Part shown: positions 1-54,284 of the stretch, piece by piece
Layout: each line of letters opens with the position of its first letter
Position numbering within the stretch: the stretch's first letter is position 1
Assembly: GCA_017412765.1 (NCBI GenBank)
Contig: JAFPWN010000033.1
Span: 1-54,284, forward strand
Source: Oscillospiraceae bacterium
Lineage (GTDB): Bacteria > Bacillota > Clostridia > Oscillospirales > Oscillospiraceae
Length of the DNA: 54,284 nucleotides
Direction of reading: 5' to 3'
The notes under the pieces: generated by a model
Database searches by the model: none
Told to the model about the DNA's origin: nothing
What the model saw: the letters and a program-made list of their open reading frames with translations, nothing else
Position numbers and translations under genes: made by a program

Positions 1-158
1 CAATGCGTCGACAAAGTCTCCGCATCGAACATATTTTGCGCTCTCTGAGCGCAAAATATGACGCCTGCGGGCGGGTGATGCGACGTGAAGGGGCCTCTCG
101 GCCGGCCCCTTCACAGATCCCCGCCTCCTTTATCCAACGCTGTTCTTCTTTGTCTACA
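1..158 (-). repeat. Dispersed 159-bp hairpin element, copy A (at contig edge)
   Basis: This is the reverse complement of the elements at 5689-5847, 12071-12228 and 54126-54284. Read on the minus strand it starts TGTAGACAAA, carries the AAAGGAGG-containing block, an 11-bp hairpin (GTGAAGGGGCC arms), a short GCC/GGC hairpin and a perfect 14-bp hairpin (CATATTTTGCGCTC arms). It ends TTTGTCGACGCATTG at base 1. It is about one base shorter than the other copies because of small changes after TGTAGACAAA. The contig starts exactly at the end of the element, which fits an assembly break at a repeat. Confidence 0.93.
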
Positions 159-166
159 GTCACAAA

Positions 167-190
167 AGAGCCTGCCGCTTGGCAGGCTCT
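167..190. terminator. Bidirectional intrinsic terminator next to repeat copy A
   Basis: A perfect 10-bp stem (AGAGCCTGCC / GGCAGGCTCT) with loop GCTT lies between the DUF1349 gene and repeat copy A. On the plus strand it is followed by TTTTTATTTT, on the minus strand by TTTTGTG. It would end the minus-strand operon whose last stop codon is at 200-202. Like the hairpins beside copies C and D, its stem begins GAGCC and it stands just outside the TGTAGAC end of the element. Confidence 0.8.
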
Positions 191-199
191 TTTTTATTT

Positions 200-3350: not shown

Positions 3351-3602
3351 TTGAGGCAGGATCTGTTTGAACGCGCAAGAGAGATCGGCGGCTACATAGT
3401 TTCGGAGAACGCGACCGTTCGCGCCGCCGCGGGAAAATTCGGAATATCCAAAAGCACGGTTTTCAAGGACGTTTCCGAACGGCTGTACGCAGCCGACAGG
3501 CTCCTCTACGAGCAGTGCAAGAGCGTTCTTGAGCGCAACAAGGCCGAGCGCCACATTCGCGGCGGCGAGGCGACAAGGAAAAAGTACGAGCGTACCCGTT
3601 AA
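3351..3602 (+). CDS. spoIIID: Sporulation transcriptional regulator SpoIIID
   Basis: An 83-residue mother-cell sporulation regulator. It aligns with Bacillus SpoIIID along its length: E-R-A-R-E-I-G-G-Y-I-V, then A-T-V-R-A-A-A-G-K-F-G-I-S-K-S-T-V as the helix-turn-helix, and the C-terminal R-H-I-R-G-G-E-A-T-R-K-K-Y basic helix that contacts DNA. The TTG at 3351 is preferred because it matches the known SpoIIID N-terminus and lies 10 bp after GGGAG; a GTG at 3342 sits almost on top of that ribosome binding site. The gene is divergent from psuK. Its presence argues that the organism forms, or descends from ancestors that formed, endospores. Confidence 0.94.
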   Translation: MRQDLFERAREIGGYIVSENATVRAAAGKFGISKSTVFKDVSERLYAADRLLYEQCKSVLERNKAERHIRGGEATRKKYERTR

Positions 3603-3611
3603 GGTACGCTC
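3588..3611. terminator. Terminator between spoIIID and the M3 peptidase gene
   Basis: A perfect 9-bp stem GAGCGTACC / GGTACGCTC with a 6-base loop that contains the spoIIID stop codon. Behind it on the minus strand is GTACTTTTTCC, on the plus strand only AATATTATTATT. It probably serves mainly the convergent peptidase gene and incidentally spoIIID. Confidence 0.65.
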
Positions 3612-3618
3612 AATATTA

Positions 3619-5322
3619 TTATTCGATTCCCGTCAGATCGTAGCTTCTGAGCCACTTTTCGGCCTTTTCGCAGACGGATCTGAGGGTATTCTCGTCAAAC
3701 GGCGAATCAAGTTCCGCGTTTTTGAGAAGCTCCGTGAACGTGCGTGTGCCGCCCTGGAGTGTGTAAGCCATGTACTTATCCCACGCCTTTTTTCTGTCCT
3801 CCTGCAAAAGCGCCCAGAACTCAAGCGACACTGTCTGTGCGAGGCAGTAATCAATGTAGTAGAACGGCGAATTGTAGATGTGCTGCTGGCGCTGCCAGCC
3901 GCAGCCCTCGCCGTAGACCGGGATCTCGCCGTCGATGCGCTGCCACGGCATATAGATATCGAGAAGATCGCGCCAGAGGTAGTGGCGCTCATCGGGGCCG
4001 AACTCCGGGTGCTCGTAAACGACGTGCTGGAAGTGATCCACCATCGTGCCGTAAGGAATGAATTTCAGCGCGTCGGCAAGGTGCGCGTAGCGGTATTTGC
4101 GCGCGTCGGCGCCGAAGAAGTCCTCTGCCCACGGCCAGGCCATGAACTCCATGCTCATGGAATGCACCTCGCACGCCTCCATGCTCGGCCAGACATAGCT
4201 GAGCGGAACGCGGGAGCGGTTTGTGTAAGCGGCAAACGCGTGACCCGCCTCATGTGTCATTACCTCAACGTCGTGCTGCGTGCCGTTGAAGTTTGCGAAG
4301 ATGAACGGCACCTCGTAATCCGCGATGGAGGTGCAGTAGCCGCCGCCCTCCTTGCCCTCTGTCGAGAGGAGATCCATAAGCTCGTTATCGAGCATAACGC
4401 CGAAGAACTCGCTCGTCTCGGGGCTCAGCTCGTCATAGAACTTCTTGCCCGCCCTGACGGTATCGTCAAAGGTGCCCTGCGGCTTCGGGTTTCCGGAGCG
4501 GAAGGTGAGCGCGTTGTCGGCAAAGCTCATCGGATATTCTTTTTTGAGGCGCTTTGCCTGGCGGCGGAAAATCTTGTCTGCGACCGGCACGACGTAGTTT
4601 ATTACCGCCGCGCGGAACTTTTCGACGTCCTTTTTATCGTAGCAGTTTCTGCCCATGCGGTAGTAGCCGAGCTCGGTATAATCCTTATAGCCGAGCTTCT
4701 TGCCCATTCTCGTGCGGAGCTTAACGAGCTTGTCGTAGATCTCGTCAAGCTCGGTCTGATTATCTTTGAACCACTGACCCTCAGCCTTCCATGCGCGAAG
4801 GCGCACGTCGTCGTCAGCGGAGTTCTTGAAGGGCGAGAGCTGGCTGAGCGTATATACGCCGCCGTCGAAGGGTATCTGTGCGGAAGCGATGAGCTTCATA
4901 TAGCGGGTGGTGAGGTCGTTTTCCTTCTGCATCTCGGGGATTATCTTCGGGGAGAACGCCTTTACGGAGATCTCGGTATTGACGAACATGAGGTCGCCGT
5001 ACTCGCGCTCGAAGTCGGGGCGGAACCTGCTTTCGAGCATTGCAAGATCAAACTTCTGCTCATGCTCGCTAAGCTCCGGCGCCTTAGCGTTCCAGAAGTC
5101 CTGCTCCTTGTCGTAGAACTCGTCGCGCGTGTCGATGGAGTGACGGATGGAAACGAGATTTGAGAGCGTGTCAATGTGGCGGAGAAGCTCCTCCTTCTCG
5201 AGGAAAATTGCCTTCGCCTCGTCGTAGCTCTCCGCACCCGAGAGCTTTTCCGCTAGAGAAGAAAGCTTCGCGCCGGCTTCGTCGAGGTCGGGGCGGGTGT
5301 ACTGCATTTCAGAAAATTTCAT
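3619..5322 (-). CDS. M3 family oligoendopeptidase (not-PepF subgroup)
   Basis: A 567-residue zinc metallopeptidase of the M3B oligoendopeptidase family; the length matches the M3 subgroup separate from classical PepF. The zinc site H-E-A-G-H is at residues 357-361. A downstream glutamate in E-A-C-E-V-H-S-M (about residues 383-390) is the expected third ligand. There is no signal peptide, so it should cleave short peptides in the cytoplasm. The start at 5322 follows GGAGGCAAAAT. It is a single gene, convergent with spoIIID and divergent from the Lar-like gene. Confidence 0.95.
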   Translation of the reverse strand: MKFSEMQYTRPDLDEAGAKLSSLAEKLSGAESYDEAKAIFLEKEELLRHIDTLSNLVSIRHSIDTRDEFYDKEQDFWNAKAPELSEHEQKFDLAMLESRFRPDFEREYGDLMFVNTEISVKAFSPKIIPEMQKENDLTTRYMKLIASAQIPFDGGVYTLSQLSPFKNSADDDVRLRAWKAEGQWFKDNQTELDEIYDKLVKLRTRMGKKLGYKDYTELGYYRMGRNCYDKKDVEKFRAAVINYVVPVADKIFRRQAKRLKKEYPMSFADNALTFRSGNPKPQGTFDDTVRAGKKFYDELSPETSEFFGVMLDNELMDLLSTEGKEGGGYCTSIADYEVPFIFANFNGTQHDVEVMTHEAGHAFAAYTNRSRVPLSYVWPSMEACEVHSMSMEFMAWPWAEDFFGADARKYRYAHLADALKFIPYGTMVDHFQHVVYEHPEFGPDERHYLWRDLLDIYMPWQRIDGEIPVYGEGCGWQRQQHIYNSPFYYIDYCLAQTVSLEFWALLQEDRKKAWDKYMAYTLQGGTRTFTELLKNAELDSPFDENTLRSVCEKAEKWLRSYDLTGIE

Positions 5323-5678: not shown

Positions 5679-5688
5679 TATCTCAGAC

Positions 5689-5847
5689 TGTAGACAAAAA
5701 GGAAAAAGCGTTGGATAAAGGAGGCGGGGATCTGTGAAGGGGCCGGCCAAGAGGCCCCTTCACGTCGCATAATCCGCCCGCAGGCGTCATATTTTGCGCT
5801 CAGAGAGCGCAAAATATGTTCGATGCGGAGACTTTGTCGACGCATTG
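5689..5847 (+). repeat. Dispersed 159-bp hairpin element, copy B
   Basis: Near-identical to copies A, C and D. Its parts are: TGTAGACAAA left end; AAAGGAGG block at about 5717-5724; perfect hairpin 5734-5763 (11-bp arms, loop GGCCAAGA); small hairpin near 5775-5786; perfect hairpin 5788-5818 (14-bp arms, loop AGA); right end TTTGTCGACGCATTG. The ends form an imperfect inverted repeat, GTAGACAAA against GTCGACAAA. It lies between the Lar-like gene and that gene's terminator. No long open frame is conserved between copies: copy B has TAA where copies A and D have TCA. Confidence 0.95.
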
Positions 5848-5848
5848 A

Positions 5849-5874
5849 GCCGTGCCCTCGGGCGCGGCTTTTTT
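5849..5874 (+). terminator. Intrinsic terminator behind repeat copy B
   Basis: An 8-bp stem GCCGTGCC / GGCGCGGC with one G-T pair and loop CTCG, followed by TTTTTT. It abuts the right end of the repeat directly and would end transcripts of the Lar-like gene that run through the repeat. Confidence 0.85.
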
Positions 5875-11567: not shown

Positions 11568-12035
11568 ATGACTAAGGATCCCTACGAAATCCTCGGTGTG
11601 GCGCCCGGCGCCAGCCAGGAAGATATAAAAAAGGCATACCGCCGCAAGACAAAAGAATATCACCCCGACCTACACCCCGACGATCCCACAGCAGGCGAGA
11701 AAATGGCTGAGGTCAACGCCGCTTACGACAGACTTCAGAACCCGGAAAAGTACGCCGCAGATCAGCGCCGCGAGGAGGCTCAGCGGCAGTATTCTCAGCA
11801 GCAGGGCTATCAGCATTATTCGCAGAACGGCGGCTACACCTATTACACCTACACCTATGACCCCTATGAGCGCTATGAGGAAGACGAGCGCGCCGACGAT
11901 CGGTTTTACGGTTTCCGCCGCTCATCGCCGGTCACGTTCAGCTTTTTCCCGTTTTTCGGGATACTCCGGTGGATATTCTATATAAACGCCATCGGCTGGT
12001 TTCTCCGTCTGATCGGCGGACTGTTCTTAAGATAA
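11568..12035 (+). CDS. J-domain (DnaJ-like) protein with hydrophobic tail
   Basis: A 155-residue protein. The N-terminal J domain (about residues 4-68) carries D-P-Y-E-I-L-G-V and the essential H-P-D tripeptide, so it should stimulate a DnaK ATPase. The G/F-rich, zinc and client-binding domains of full DnaJ are absent. Instead there is a Q/Y-rich low-complexity stretch (about 75-115) and a C-terminal hydrophobic segment ([12 protein letters not shown]) that may bind membrane. The ribosome binding site is GAGAGGAG. It is the second gene of a pair with the zinc-ribbon membrane protein. Confidence 0.9.
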
Positions 12036-12042
12036 TGATACG

Positions 12043-12066
12043 GAGCCGGACTTTTATGTCCGGCTT
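12043..12066 (+). terminator. Terminator hairpin, left member of an exact 24-bp duplication
   Basis: An 8-bp stem AGCCGGAC / GTCCGGCT with loop TTTTAT, 7 bp behind the J-domain gene. The 24 bases from GAGCC to GGCTT are repeated exactly at 12228-12251 on the other side of repeat copy C. The left copy lacks a T-tract (TTGGATTG follows). Confidence 0.75.
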
Positions 12067-12070
12067 GGAT

Positions 12071-12228
12071 TGTAGACAAAAAGGAAAAAGCGTTGGATAA
12101 AGGAGGCGGGGATCTGTGAAGGGGCCGGCCGAGAGGCCCCTTCACGTCGCAAAAAGGCCCGCAGGCGTCATATTTTGCGCTCAGAGAGCGCAAAATATGT
12201 TCGATGCGGAGACTTTGTCGACGCATCG
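12071..12228 (+). mobile_element. Dispersed 159-bp hairpin element, copy C, flanked by a 24-bp direct repeat
   Basis: Same architecture as copy B: TGTAGACAAA end, AAAGGAGG block, 11-bp hairpin with loop GGCCGAGA, 14-bp hairpin with loop AGA, TTTGTCGACGCATCG end. The linker between the hairpins differs (AAAAAGGCCC), which shifts any reading frame. It separates two convergent genes that appear to have shared one bidirectional terminator, now present as an exact 24-bp copy on each side. This looks like insertion of a non-autonomous element with target duplication. No transposase is in the window. Confidence 0.85.
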
Positions 12229-12251
12229 AGCCGGACTTTTATGTCCGGCTT
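12228..12251. terminator. Terminator hairpin, right member of the 24-bp duplication
   Basis: Identical to 12043-12066. It lies 2 bp from the stop codon of the convergent radical SAM gene and abuts repeat copy C. Plus-strand transcripts meet GGCTTTATC after the stem; the minus strand has no T-run. Together with its twin it brackets the repeat. Confidence 0.7.
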
Positions 12252-12253
12252 TA

Positions 12254-13258
12254 TCAATACCTTCTGCTGCCGGAGTACCTCTCGTCGGTAACGTCGCAGA
12301 CTTTGACTTTATGCTCCTCTGAATAGAGCTTACGATAGCGATGGTATAGATCTCTCCGGCGGTACAGCTTATCGCCGCTCTTATCCCCATATTCCTCGCC
12401 GAGCTCACCGAAATCCGGAAAAGCGGTGTAGTATTCGTCGTCGAGCCGCTCTATCCCGCGCAGTATTTCTTCGGCCGGGCGCTTTTCGTAATCCTCTATA
12501 TTCTCCTTCGTCAGCGAGATAAGAATCTGCCGGTATTTCTCTTCCTCCGGCTTCTCCGAGAGCCACTCCGCCTCGGTTTTATATAACTCCCGATTAAGGA
12601 GCTTTACTGAATCCGGCGAGAGCCTCTCAAGGTCGCGCCGCCTCAGCCGAATGCTCTCGAGCGCTTCGCCTCTTCCCTCGCCGTGTGGGATAAAGAGAAA
12701 CACCTTGCCGCTGCCGGCTTCTTTCAGCACAGCAGCAAGCTCGTCGATCTCGTCTATGTTTTCGCTGATAAGCGGCACAGCGGTGGTGAACGGAATTTCA
12801 GCCTCCCTTGCCGCCCTCATCATACGAAAAAGAAGATCATAGTCACCCTTTCTTCCGGCAAAACGGTCGTGGTAGTCTCTGAGCCCGTAAAGGGTAAAGT
12901 TCAGGCTTTTTACCCCCTCATCGCACAAAATTGCCATCAGCTCGCCGCACTGCATATCGTCTCTCATTTTCATGCCGTCGCACTGCATGAACTCCGCTGT
13001 CGGGCTTCCGAGTCTGCGCAGAGTGCGGATTGCCTCCCGCAGATTTCTATGCTCCATTGAGTATCCGAACGAAAAGGCACTGTCGAGCTGTGGCCTTGTT
13101 TCCCTCAGCTCGTTTATGATCCTCTCCGCCGTTTTAACGCTCCGCTCCCAATCTGCTCCCAGAGTTCTTCCGCTCCACGACAGCAAGCAATATCTGCATT
13201 TATTACAGCACGGAACGCAGAGACTTTGAATCAAAACCGACTTTGTCTGCATTTTCAT
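12254..13258 (-). CDS. Radical SAM protein of unknown substrate
   Basis: A 334-residue protein whose N-terminus has a CxxxCxxC cluster motif (C-C-N-K-C-R-Y-C, the first, fifth and eighth residues as ligands) after a short beta strand, as in radical SAM enzymes. An F-S-F-G-Y-S-M-E block and a K-S-L-N-F-T-L-Y-G strand fit the TIM-barrel. The C-terminal half is charged and carries no further cysteine cluster that I recognise. Pathway and substrate are unknown. The ATG at 13258 has AAAGGAATA in front. It converges on the J-domain gene across repeat copy C. Confidence 0.82.
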   Translation of the reverse strand: MKMQTKSVLIQSLCVPCCNKCRYCLLSWSGRTLGADWERSVKTAERIINELRETRPQLDSAFSFGYSMEHRNLREAIRTLRRLGSPTAEFMQCDGMKMRDDMQCGELMAILCDEGVKSLNFTLYGLRDYHDRFAGRKGDYDLLFRMMRAAREAEIPFTTAVPLISENIDEIDELAAVLKEAGSGKVFLFIPHGEGRGEALESIRLRRRDLERLSPDSVKLLNRELYKTEAEWLSEKPEEEKYRQILISLTKENIEDYEKRPAEEILRGIERLDDEYYTAFPDFGELGEEYGDKSGDKLYRRRDLYHRYRKLYSEEHKVKVCDVTDERYSGSRRY

Positions 13259-53815: not shown

Positions 53816-54125
53816 GTGCTATTTTGAACGCGACTGATCGCTTTATGTTTTCTTCCTCCTGCGGAGCCGTATCCTGCTCTGATGGTGAGGAGGATCACTT
53901 TCTCGGCGGCAGGAAGATGGGGTCTTGGGTCTCCGCGCCTCAGCACGTCTGTATGCCCTTGATCCGCAAGGGAAACGCAGAAATGGTCAAAAGTACAGTC
54001 GTGCTTGTGATTGCCGTCAACGCGCCTCTGATCGCGTCGTATCACTTGACCGGCAAGGCGCAATTCCATCTCGTTTCGTCTGACAGGGAAAAAATGAGCC
54101 TTGAGGAAAACCTCAAGGCTCAGAC
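53816..54125. other. Gene-poor stretch with several RNA-like hairpins, unidentified
   Basis: About 310 bp between the BMP terminator and repeat copy D without a gene I can support. Long frames exist on both strands, but their ends run into the repeat, and none has a ribosome binding site in place. Visible structure: CCCTTG-ATCCG-CAAGGG near 53957-53974, and a larger stem TTGCCGTCAA (54011-54020) with TTGACCGGCAA (54046-54056), 10 pairs with one bulge, that encloses a small CGCG hairpin. It could be a non-coding RNA or a decayed gene. I do not see signatures of 6S, SRP, tmRNA or RNase P RNA. Confidence 0.4.
54096..54121 (+). terminator. Perfect hairpin abutting repeat copy D
   Basis: An 11-bp perfect stem GAGCCTTGAGG / CCTCAAGGCTC with loop AAAA, 4 bp before TGTAGAC. 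There is no T-run behind it, just as at the left hairpin of copy C. If copy D also split a terminator, an identical hairpin followed by T residues would lie beyond the contig end. Confidence 0.6.
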
Positions 54126-54284
54126 TGTAGACAAAATGGAAAAAGCGTTGGATAAAGGAGGCGGGGATCTGTGAAGGGGCCGGCCGAGAGGCCCCTTCAC
54201 GTCGCATCACCCGCCCGCAGGCGTCATATTTTGCGCTCAGAGAGCGCAAAATATGTTCGATGCGGAGACTTTGTCGACGCATTG
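54126..54284 (+). repeat. Dispersed 159-bp hairpin element, copy D (at contig edge)
   Basis: Plus-oriented copy, nearly identical to A, B and C, including both hairpins and the linker TCACCCG shared with copy A. The contig ends exactly at GACGCATTG, the end of the element. With copy A at base 1 in opposite orientation, the window is bounded by inverted copies. Confidence 0.93.

Follow-up and report, generated by a model that had tools for sequence, protein, structure and literature searches.

Complete stem-loops as target-site duplications of a MITE and of IS1182-family insertion sequences, and their probable origin by joining at the feet of a cruciform

Mobile elements of an IS1182 subgroup with ends like CAGACTGTAGACAAA insert at palindromes that can form a stem-loop, and the target-site duplication (TSD) flanking them is the complete stem-loop, 20-40 bp long and of any sequence. 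Copy C of a MITE, located in the window between a J-domain protein gene and a radical SAM protein gene, is an instance of this arrangement; the window is the whole contig C22 (54,284 nucleotides) of a 2.28-Mb Oscillospiraceae genome in 74 contigs. Judging from the comparison of sequences, copy C is very probably a MITE moved by an insertion sequence (IS) of the IS1182 family; the target palindrome would have been extruded as a cruciform and copy C joined at its two 5' feet, with gap repair duplicating the stem-loop. It is also probable, to a somewhat lower degree, that a broad IS1182 subgroup present in Clostridia, Bacilli and Proteobacteria joins at the 5' feet of cruciforms, so that the secondary structure of the target, and not the enzyme, sets the length of the TSD.

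The insertion site of copy C

Comparison of the copies defines the TSD of copy C as AGCCGGACTTTTATGTCCGGCT, a 22-bp direct repeat that begins with A, ends with T and constitutes one complete hairpin (Table 1). The initial annotation had described an exact duplication of 24 bp at this place. The 24-mer is indeed found at 12043-12066 and 12228-12251, with a shuffle expectation of 0.00; a search of the window allowing up to 3 mismatches gave no further match, and the repeat does hold a full hairpin. Its outer G and T, however, are matches to the end bases of copy C itself, and the TSD measures 22 bp. The same annotation supposed that a single hairpin stood there before the insertion, and this is the state observed in G028, a genome of the same genus whose orthologous site is empty and carries one hairpin at exactly that place. 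The flanks of the two sites are 88% identical over 603 bp on the left and 81% identical over only 72 bp on the right, and the gap of -22 between them corresponds to one missing TSD. The radical SAM protein, considered as a guide to empty sites, was set aside, its homologues in other genomes (7 out of 34) being distant only (38-40%).

Table 1. Position of the MITE copies, their adjoining hairpins and the genes beside copy C in the window
Feature	Position	Strand	Remarks
MITE copy A	1-163	-	reaches contig end
Hairpin abutting copy A	164-193	.	same hairpin at matching right end on contig C15
MITE copy B	5684-5847	+	locus L001
Hairpin at right end of copy B only	5848-5869	.	left side without duplicate
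J-domain (DnaJ) protein gene, left neighbour of copy C	11568-12035	+	Pfam DnaJ
Duplicated target hairpin of copy C, left copy	12044-12065	.	22 bp, identical to 12229-12250; single in G028
MITE copy C	12066-12228	+	163 bp, ends TGGATTGTAGACAAA...TTTGTCGACGCATCG; 96% identity to copy B
Duplicated target hairpin of copy C, right copy	12229-12250	.	22 bp
Radical SAM protein gene, right neighbour of copy C	12254-13258	-	Pfam Radical_SAM
Hairpin abutting left end of copy D	54097-54120	.	near-identical hairpin at matching right end, contig C32
MITE copy D	54121-54284	+	reaches contig end

In the first search for copies 40 of 83 candidates were scored. Hairpins adjoin copies A, B and D, as the initial annotation had noticed, that of copy B on the right only. 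The repeat shared by copy A and C15 continues five bases (GTGAC) into the position of the usual end of the element, and the hairpin of copy D differs from its partner on C32 by one base in the loop. These matching hairpins suggest that C15 and C32 are the contigs neighbouring the window at copies A and D, respectively. Comparison of copy B with G028 reveals one degenerate hairpin and no TSD. Positions 1 and 54284 of the window both fall inside MITE copies.

Hairpin duplication in the MITE family

The right-end pattern of the MITE has 57 exact and 3 one-mismatch matches in its own genome, which gives about 60 right ends, and the left-end pattern has 41 exact and 13 one-mismatch matches; some of the matched ends belong to derivatives devoid of the usual interior. 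The elements typically start with CAGACTGTAGACAAA and end with TTTGTCGACGCATTG, and they are short, present in many copies and without a transposase gene, as expected for a MITE. Both ends and flanks were available for 71 rows (44 from the own genome, 13 from G026 and 14 from G028), from which 4 copies at contig edges (L010, L029, L117, L120) had been excluded. One of the rows (L119, plus strand) is a spurious double detection, leaving 70 true rows with a length of 157-165 bp. In L035, L047 and L048 (minus strand) the right end is present and the interior is different or mostly deleted, and L049 represents a diverged subfamily. An identical left flank and hairpin precede the MITE at L015 (start of C43) and the start of a full IS at L054 (end of C68), so that a tandem or strain-variable insertion may have occurred at one hairpin.

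A TSD score of at least 12 was reached by 53 of the 71 rows. Among 1540 mismatched pairs, in which the left flank of one copy was combined with the right flank of another, 3 reached it. By a strict hairpin test the 71 rows comprise 52 with the same hairpin on both sides, 4 with hairpins on both sides and a low direct-repeat score, 9 one-sided and 6 with none. The four low-score rows (L015, L111 and L128, with the loop inverted, and L123, shifted) were accepted by eye together with L129, whose hairpin is offset. Hence the same hairpin is found on both sides of 57 of the 70 copies (52 by the strict test and 5 by eye), the remaining 13 being without it. The target hairpins vary in sequence from site to site. 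TSDs of 6-8 bp occur at L013, L026, L031, L038, L042 and L130; where the hairpin is not duplicated, these are taken as the native stagger of the enzyme.

Five MITE pairs (L007, L014 on the minus strand, L015, L111 and L128) consist of two hairpins whose loops are in opposite orientation, the case of L015 being less clear owing to further changes. No such pair exists among 40 IS copies, and the inversion may for that reason arise later than the insertion. As a background, 108 hairpins in stretches of G026 yielded 21 comparisons with 0 inversions, a small sample. At L131 the loop likewise has opposite orientations in the occupied site and in its empty orthologue.

Stem-loops in general serve as targets, and most of those used resemble intrinsic terminators. 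At L039 (G000, contig C40, around 3440-3650), directly after five tRNA genes, the duplicated hairpin resembles a tRNA anticodon arm and the right side holds a T-arm-like sequence; ARAGORN called no tRNA at this hairpin. The earlier proposal that the element targets and duplicates terminator hairpins is sustained as regards the duplication, which is general, and is widened as regards the target.

The state of the sites prior to insertion was examined by searching with the flanks of the 71 rows in approximately 0.38 Mb of G028, 0.39 Mb of G026 and the loci already collected. For twelve of the hairpin-flanked sites the searched DNA contains an unoccupied orthologue (L016, L017, L020, L022, which is copy C, L023, L032, L050, L065, L108, L118, L121 and L131), and each of the twelve has one hairpin, the flanks joining with one TSD missing to within 2 bases. 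The best empty site is that of L108 in G028, with flanks 97-98% identical. The comparison is weaker for L121 and L022, where one of the two flank matches spans only 41 and 72 bp, respectively, for L023, which depends on an adjacent match of 40 bp, and for L032, whose left flank has 68% identity. The initial annotation had held that copies lacking the duplication, or element-free strains carrying two hairpins, would speak against such targeting; the counts of 57 of 70 and twelve of twelve point the other way. At the short-repeat sites L038, L042 and L130 the repeat is also single when the site is empty. Their TSDs measure 7, 6 and 7 bp and the predicted gaps are -7, -12 and -7, respectively, that of L042 not being an exact fit. 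Rearrangement of the sites made the comparisons of L004, L049 and L127, as well as that of L118 against G000, uninformative. At six sites the element is present in two or three species. In two of the six, L107/L124 and L037/L112, it is oppositely oriented across species and the MITE variants are distinct close to the left end, and these pairs are read as independent insertions at one hairpin.

The autonomous IS1182-family partner

In the own genome the IS is represented by fragments at contig ends only, at which the ends of the element adjoin the start or the end of a transposase. Starts are located on C41, C51, C52 and C68, and ends on C39, C42 and C49; identical hairpins pair C52 with C49, C51 with C39 and C41 with C42, and these contigs would accordingly be joined. 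The left end of the MITE, CAGACTGTAGACAAA, equals the IS1182-type fragment ends on C41, C51, C52, C68, C39 and C49, that of C42 having one mismatch, while the right end of the MITE is similar and non-identical to the IS end. From the shared ends and the shared type of TSD, the MITE appears to be moved in trans by an IS1182-family transposase.

The transposase pieces of the own genome, which are C-terminal, score 25 bits against NCBIfam NF033551, under the cut-off, a weak match as expected for fragments. Transposases L076 and L077 of the same genus reach 436 and 385 bits against a cut-off of 270. The protein has the domains DUF772, DDE_Tnp_1_6 and DDE_Tnp_1, and D150, D313 and E440, which we take to be the catalytic triad, are invariant in the alignment. 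The terminal inverted repeats of the IS are CAGTCTGTCGACAAA / CAGACTGTAGACAAA. Instead of the 4-bp TSD reported for several IS1182 members, the subgroup has a whole hairpin of 20-40 bp; since repeat length is variable within the family, this marks an IS1182 variant and does not exclude the elements from it.

The candidate search covered 60 genomes, with at most 14 candidates scored per genome. Nine IS copies of the same genus lie above the IS1182 cut-off, eight of them with CAG-type ends, and an exact hairpin TSD of 22-31 bp flanks seven of these eight; in the eighth (L074) a hairpin adjoins the left end and the right end is unrecognisable. The ninth copy, L090, with the ends GGGGCTGTGAAAA and both ends resolved, displays no hairpin duplication. 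In other members of the GGGGCTGTGAAAA lineage (L082, L088, L091, L092 and L100) the second match is internal and one flank only is readable. Two IS lineages 40-43% identical in protein both duplicate hairpins.

Hairpin duplication beyond the genus

A scan of 84,980 species-representative genomes gave 325 relatives, from which the best 80 were kept; 53 of these were measurable, 18 without a pair of terminal inverted repeats and 9 at contig edges being left out. Among the 53 measurable copies from the best 80 of 325, 40 are flanked left and right by the same hairpin, with a TSD of 20-40 bp (median 26) that is exact in 37. The other 13 comprise five with two different hairpins, five one-sided by the strict test and three with neither, the latter being L254 (a 21-bp exact repeat and a weak hairpin), L228 (8 bp) and L233 (6 bp). 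Inspection by eye of the one-sided rows L208, L244 and L258 revealed a hairpin at each end, the two differing. A hairpin abuts 94 of 106 IS ends, against 166 of 4200 nearby background positions.

Among the copies listed, the duplication is found in 6 of 7 of Lachnospiraceae bacterium GAM79, a complete genome, in 8 of 8 of Anaerostipes sp. 992a and in 3 of 3 of Kineothrix alysoides. Misassembly therefore fails to explain it. Copies whose two ends adjoin different hairpins (L183, L227, L231, L246, L252, L271, L208, L244 and L258) occur in isolates (Blautia wexlerae, GAM79) as well as in metagenome-assembled genomes (MAGs). Recombination between copies, or misassembly in the MAGs, is a possible source of the difference, and mismatched hairpins may thus flag rearrangements. 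Conversely, a match between hairpins allows both ends of an insertion to be linked over contig breaks, as with three IS copies and with copies A and D.

Plasmids were sampled as 17 records hand-picked from two listings. A hairpin TSD of 20-28 bp accompanies 8 of the 9 plasmid copies with CAGACTG-type ends, namely those of Acetoanaerobium, E. faecium (ISEfa7-like), Macrococcoides, Rhizobium, Staphylococcus agnetis, Providencia (two) and Enterococcus raffinosus; the ninth, L271 of E. faecalis, has two different hairpins. Among distant IS1182 members, those of Aeromonas and Bradyrhizobium have a 4-bp TSD and that of Yoonia probably one of 4 bp, and at the Sphingomonas copy (L272) no TSD was found. 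The ends are unrecognisable in Arthrobacter citreus (L266) and indistinct in Paraburkholderia (L274), and the Sinorhizobium case (L276) is weak; Mariniplasma (L273), cut by the end of the record, was left out.

A transposase tree was built with 36 of 48 extracted proteins, 12 being dropped because the automatic choice of open reading frame had selected another frame or because the match was of insufficient strength or length. The distant L264, L265, L272 and L275 are split from all 25 hairpin duplicators by a strongly supported branch, long branches leaving the placement of the distant group uncertain. The duplicator side also holds five differing or one-sided rows and two labelled short or none (L074, L254). 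The hairpin label needs 8 changes on the tree, a value equalled by 81 of 500 shuffles; this weak statistic is due mainly to the rows with two different hairpins having formed a separate label.

Target geometry and insertion mechanism

The geometry of the target was analysed in 86 TSDs, 40 from IS copies and 46 from those of the 53 high-scoring MITE rows without end offset. The TSD is palindromic through its end bases in 36 of 40 IS and 34 of 46 MITE cases, its first base being A in 81 of 86 and its last base T in 79 of 86. At the empty site at least one extra pair could form outside the TSD in 27 of the 36 palindromic IS cases and 25 of the 34 palindromic MITE cases, mostly one to three pairs; therefore, the joints coincide with the foot of the longest stem that could form or lie slightly inside it. 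A run of T after the target or of A before it, as in terminators, is present in 32 of 40 IS and 35 of 46 MITE cases. The orientation of the element with respect to the direction of the terminator is not significantly biased (16 versus 17 for the IS; 22 versus 14 for the MITE, p=0.24, a small sample compatible with a mild bias), as a target of two-fold symmetry predicts.

In DDE transposition the 3' ends of the element attack both target strands, and the sequence between the points of attack is duplicated; the textbook outcome is a short TSD, of a length set by the enzyme. Hence, a TSD of 20-40 bp that tracks the stem-loop, recorded in many genomic footprints, suggests that the transposase reads a DNA shape, the cruciform, in living cells. 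The palindrome would be extruded as a cruciform in supercoiled DNA, bringing its two 5' feet side by side, and the transposase would join the two 3' ends of the element to them. Each flank would then retain the stem-loop of one strand, and gap repair would render both double-stranded. The duplication itself is demonstrated, and the course of the transposition is read from its end products; we infer the cruciform because one type of element leaves 20-40 bp at palindromes and 6-8 bp elsewhere. The loop inversion in the five MITE pairs is not predicted by simple gap repair.

It is conceivable, and in our judgement unlikely, that the palindrome stays linear and double-stranded, without any cruciform, and that the enzyme reads its two symmetric arms (A-tract borders, for instance) and cuts 20-40 bp apart. 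The nearly constant A and T at the limits of the TSD could mean that the enzyme recognises a short sequence at both feet, A or T runs adjoin most targets, and pairing frequently extends past the joint. However, the stagger would have to vary between 20 and 40 bp, which is unusual for a DDE synaptic complex, and yet be 6-8 bp at other sites. Less probable still is that the hairpin is targeted as a single strand, on the lagging-strand template or in connection with transcription, in the way of group IIC introns or IS200/IS605. Most targets are terminator-like, as are those of group IIC introns, but the element has terminal inverted repeats and a DDE transposase, and the orientation with respect to terminator direction lacks a significant bias. 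A group IIC intron as the identity of the element was rejected, as no Rfam family passed its gathering threshold in the window and 163 bp are too short for a reverse transcriptase; the initial annotation, which saw no intron features, was right in this, the mover being an IS1182-family DDE transposase.

That two hairpins pre-existed, that the hairpin is part of the element, or that gene conversion homogenised the copies would account for the bare duplication and nothing beyond it, and is hardly credible given that the hairpins vary between sites and that all twelve empty orthologues are single. Many hairpins exist in intergenic regions, and elements residing in terminator-rich DNA could in principle have matching flanks by coincidence, an explanation of negligible probability in view of the frequency of hairpins at IS ends relative to the background and of the rarity of high scores among mismatched flank pairs.

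With the joints at the 5' feet, the terminator would be doubled instead of broken, and the genes on either side would retain one each. As both neighbours keep a terminator, the insertion would be nearly neutral and a high copy number would be aided, which would explain how dozens of terminators came to be occupied without loss of termination for the neighbouring genes.

Comparison with known systems

Stem-loop targeting by IS1182 members, MITEs with IS1182 ends and repeats of 4 bp were already known. Group IIC introns also insert beside terminator hairpins, but they are RNA-based, encode a reverse transcriptase, insert in an oriented manner and duplicate no target, whereas the system of copy C has inverted terminal repeats, a DDE transposase and a target duplication. 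In the open literature searched, which is to be distinguished from the ISfinder entries, duplication of a whole stem-loop appears solely as a hypothetical pathway (b) drawn for IS1272. ISfinder gives variable, partly long direct repeats for IS1182, and single cases of whole-hairpin repeats may for this reason be recorded there already.

Direct repeats of 4 bp are described for the IS1182 members ISPse1 (PMC3281130) and ISCaa15 (PMC3196728), and likewise for MITEPye1, a MITE with ISPye18-like, IS1182-type ends (PMC11578231). These elements share the transposase family with the copy C subgroup, and MITEPye1 is in addition a MITE with IS1182-type ends; unlike the subgroup, they have short repeats, and the portions of those articles consulted mention no hairpin duplication.

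The closest parallel is IS1272 / TnSha1 of Staphylococcus, also of the IS1182 family, for which the sections consulted report a structure-guided targeting of stem-loops, several terminators included, with little or no preference for primary sequence (PMC5678879, PMC4923244). IS1272 deletes or replaces the target stem-loop and leaves no TSD (PMC5678879), whereas the copy C subgroup duplicates the stem-loop whole; replacement of the IS1272 type was rejected for the present elements, the stem-loop being kept on both sides in 57 of 70 MITE and 40 of 53 IS copies. In the pathways drawn in that article, as far as consulted, attack at the 3' feet leads to deletion of the stem-loop, as reported for IS1272, and attack at the 5' feet of the cruciform (Fig 13, pathway b, hypothetical) leads to its duplication (PMC5678879). 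If the reading proposed here is true, the subgroup provides a natural demonstration, in many genomes, of a pathway previously only drawn for IS1272. Both systems recognise stem-loops, and IS1272, by which the hairpin is deleted, and the copy C subgroup, by which it is duplicated, would constitute a natural pair for joining at the 3' feet versus the 5' feet.
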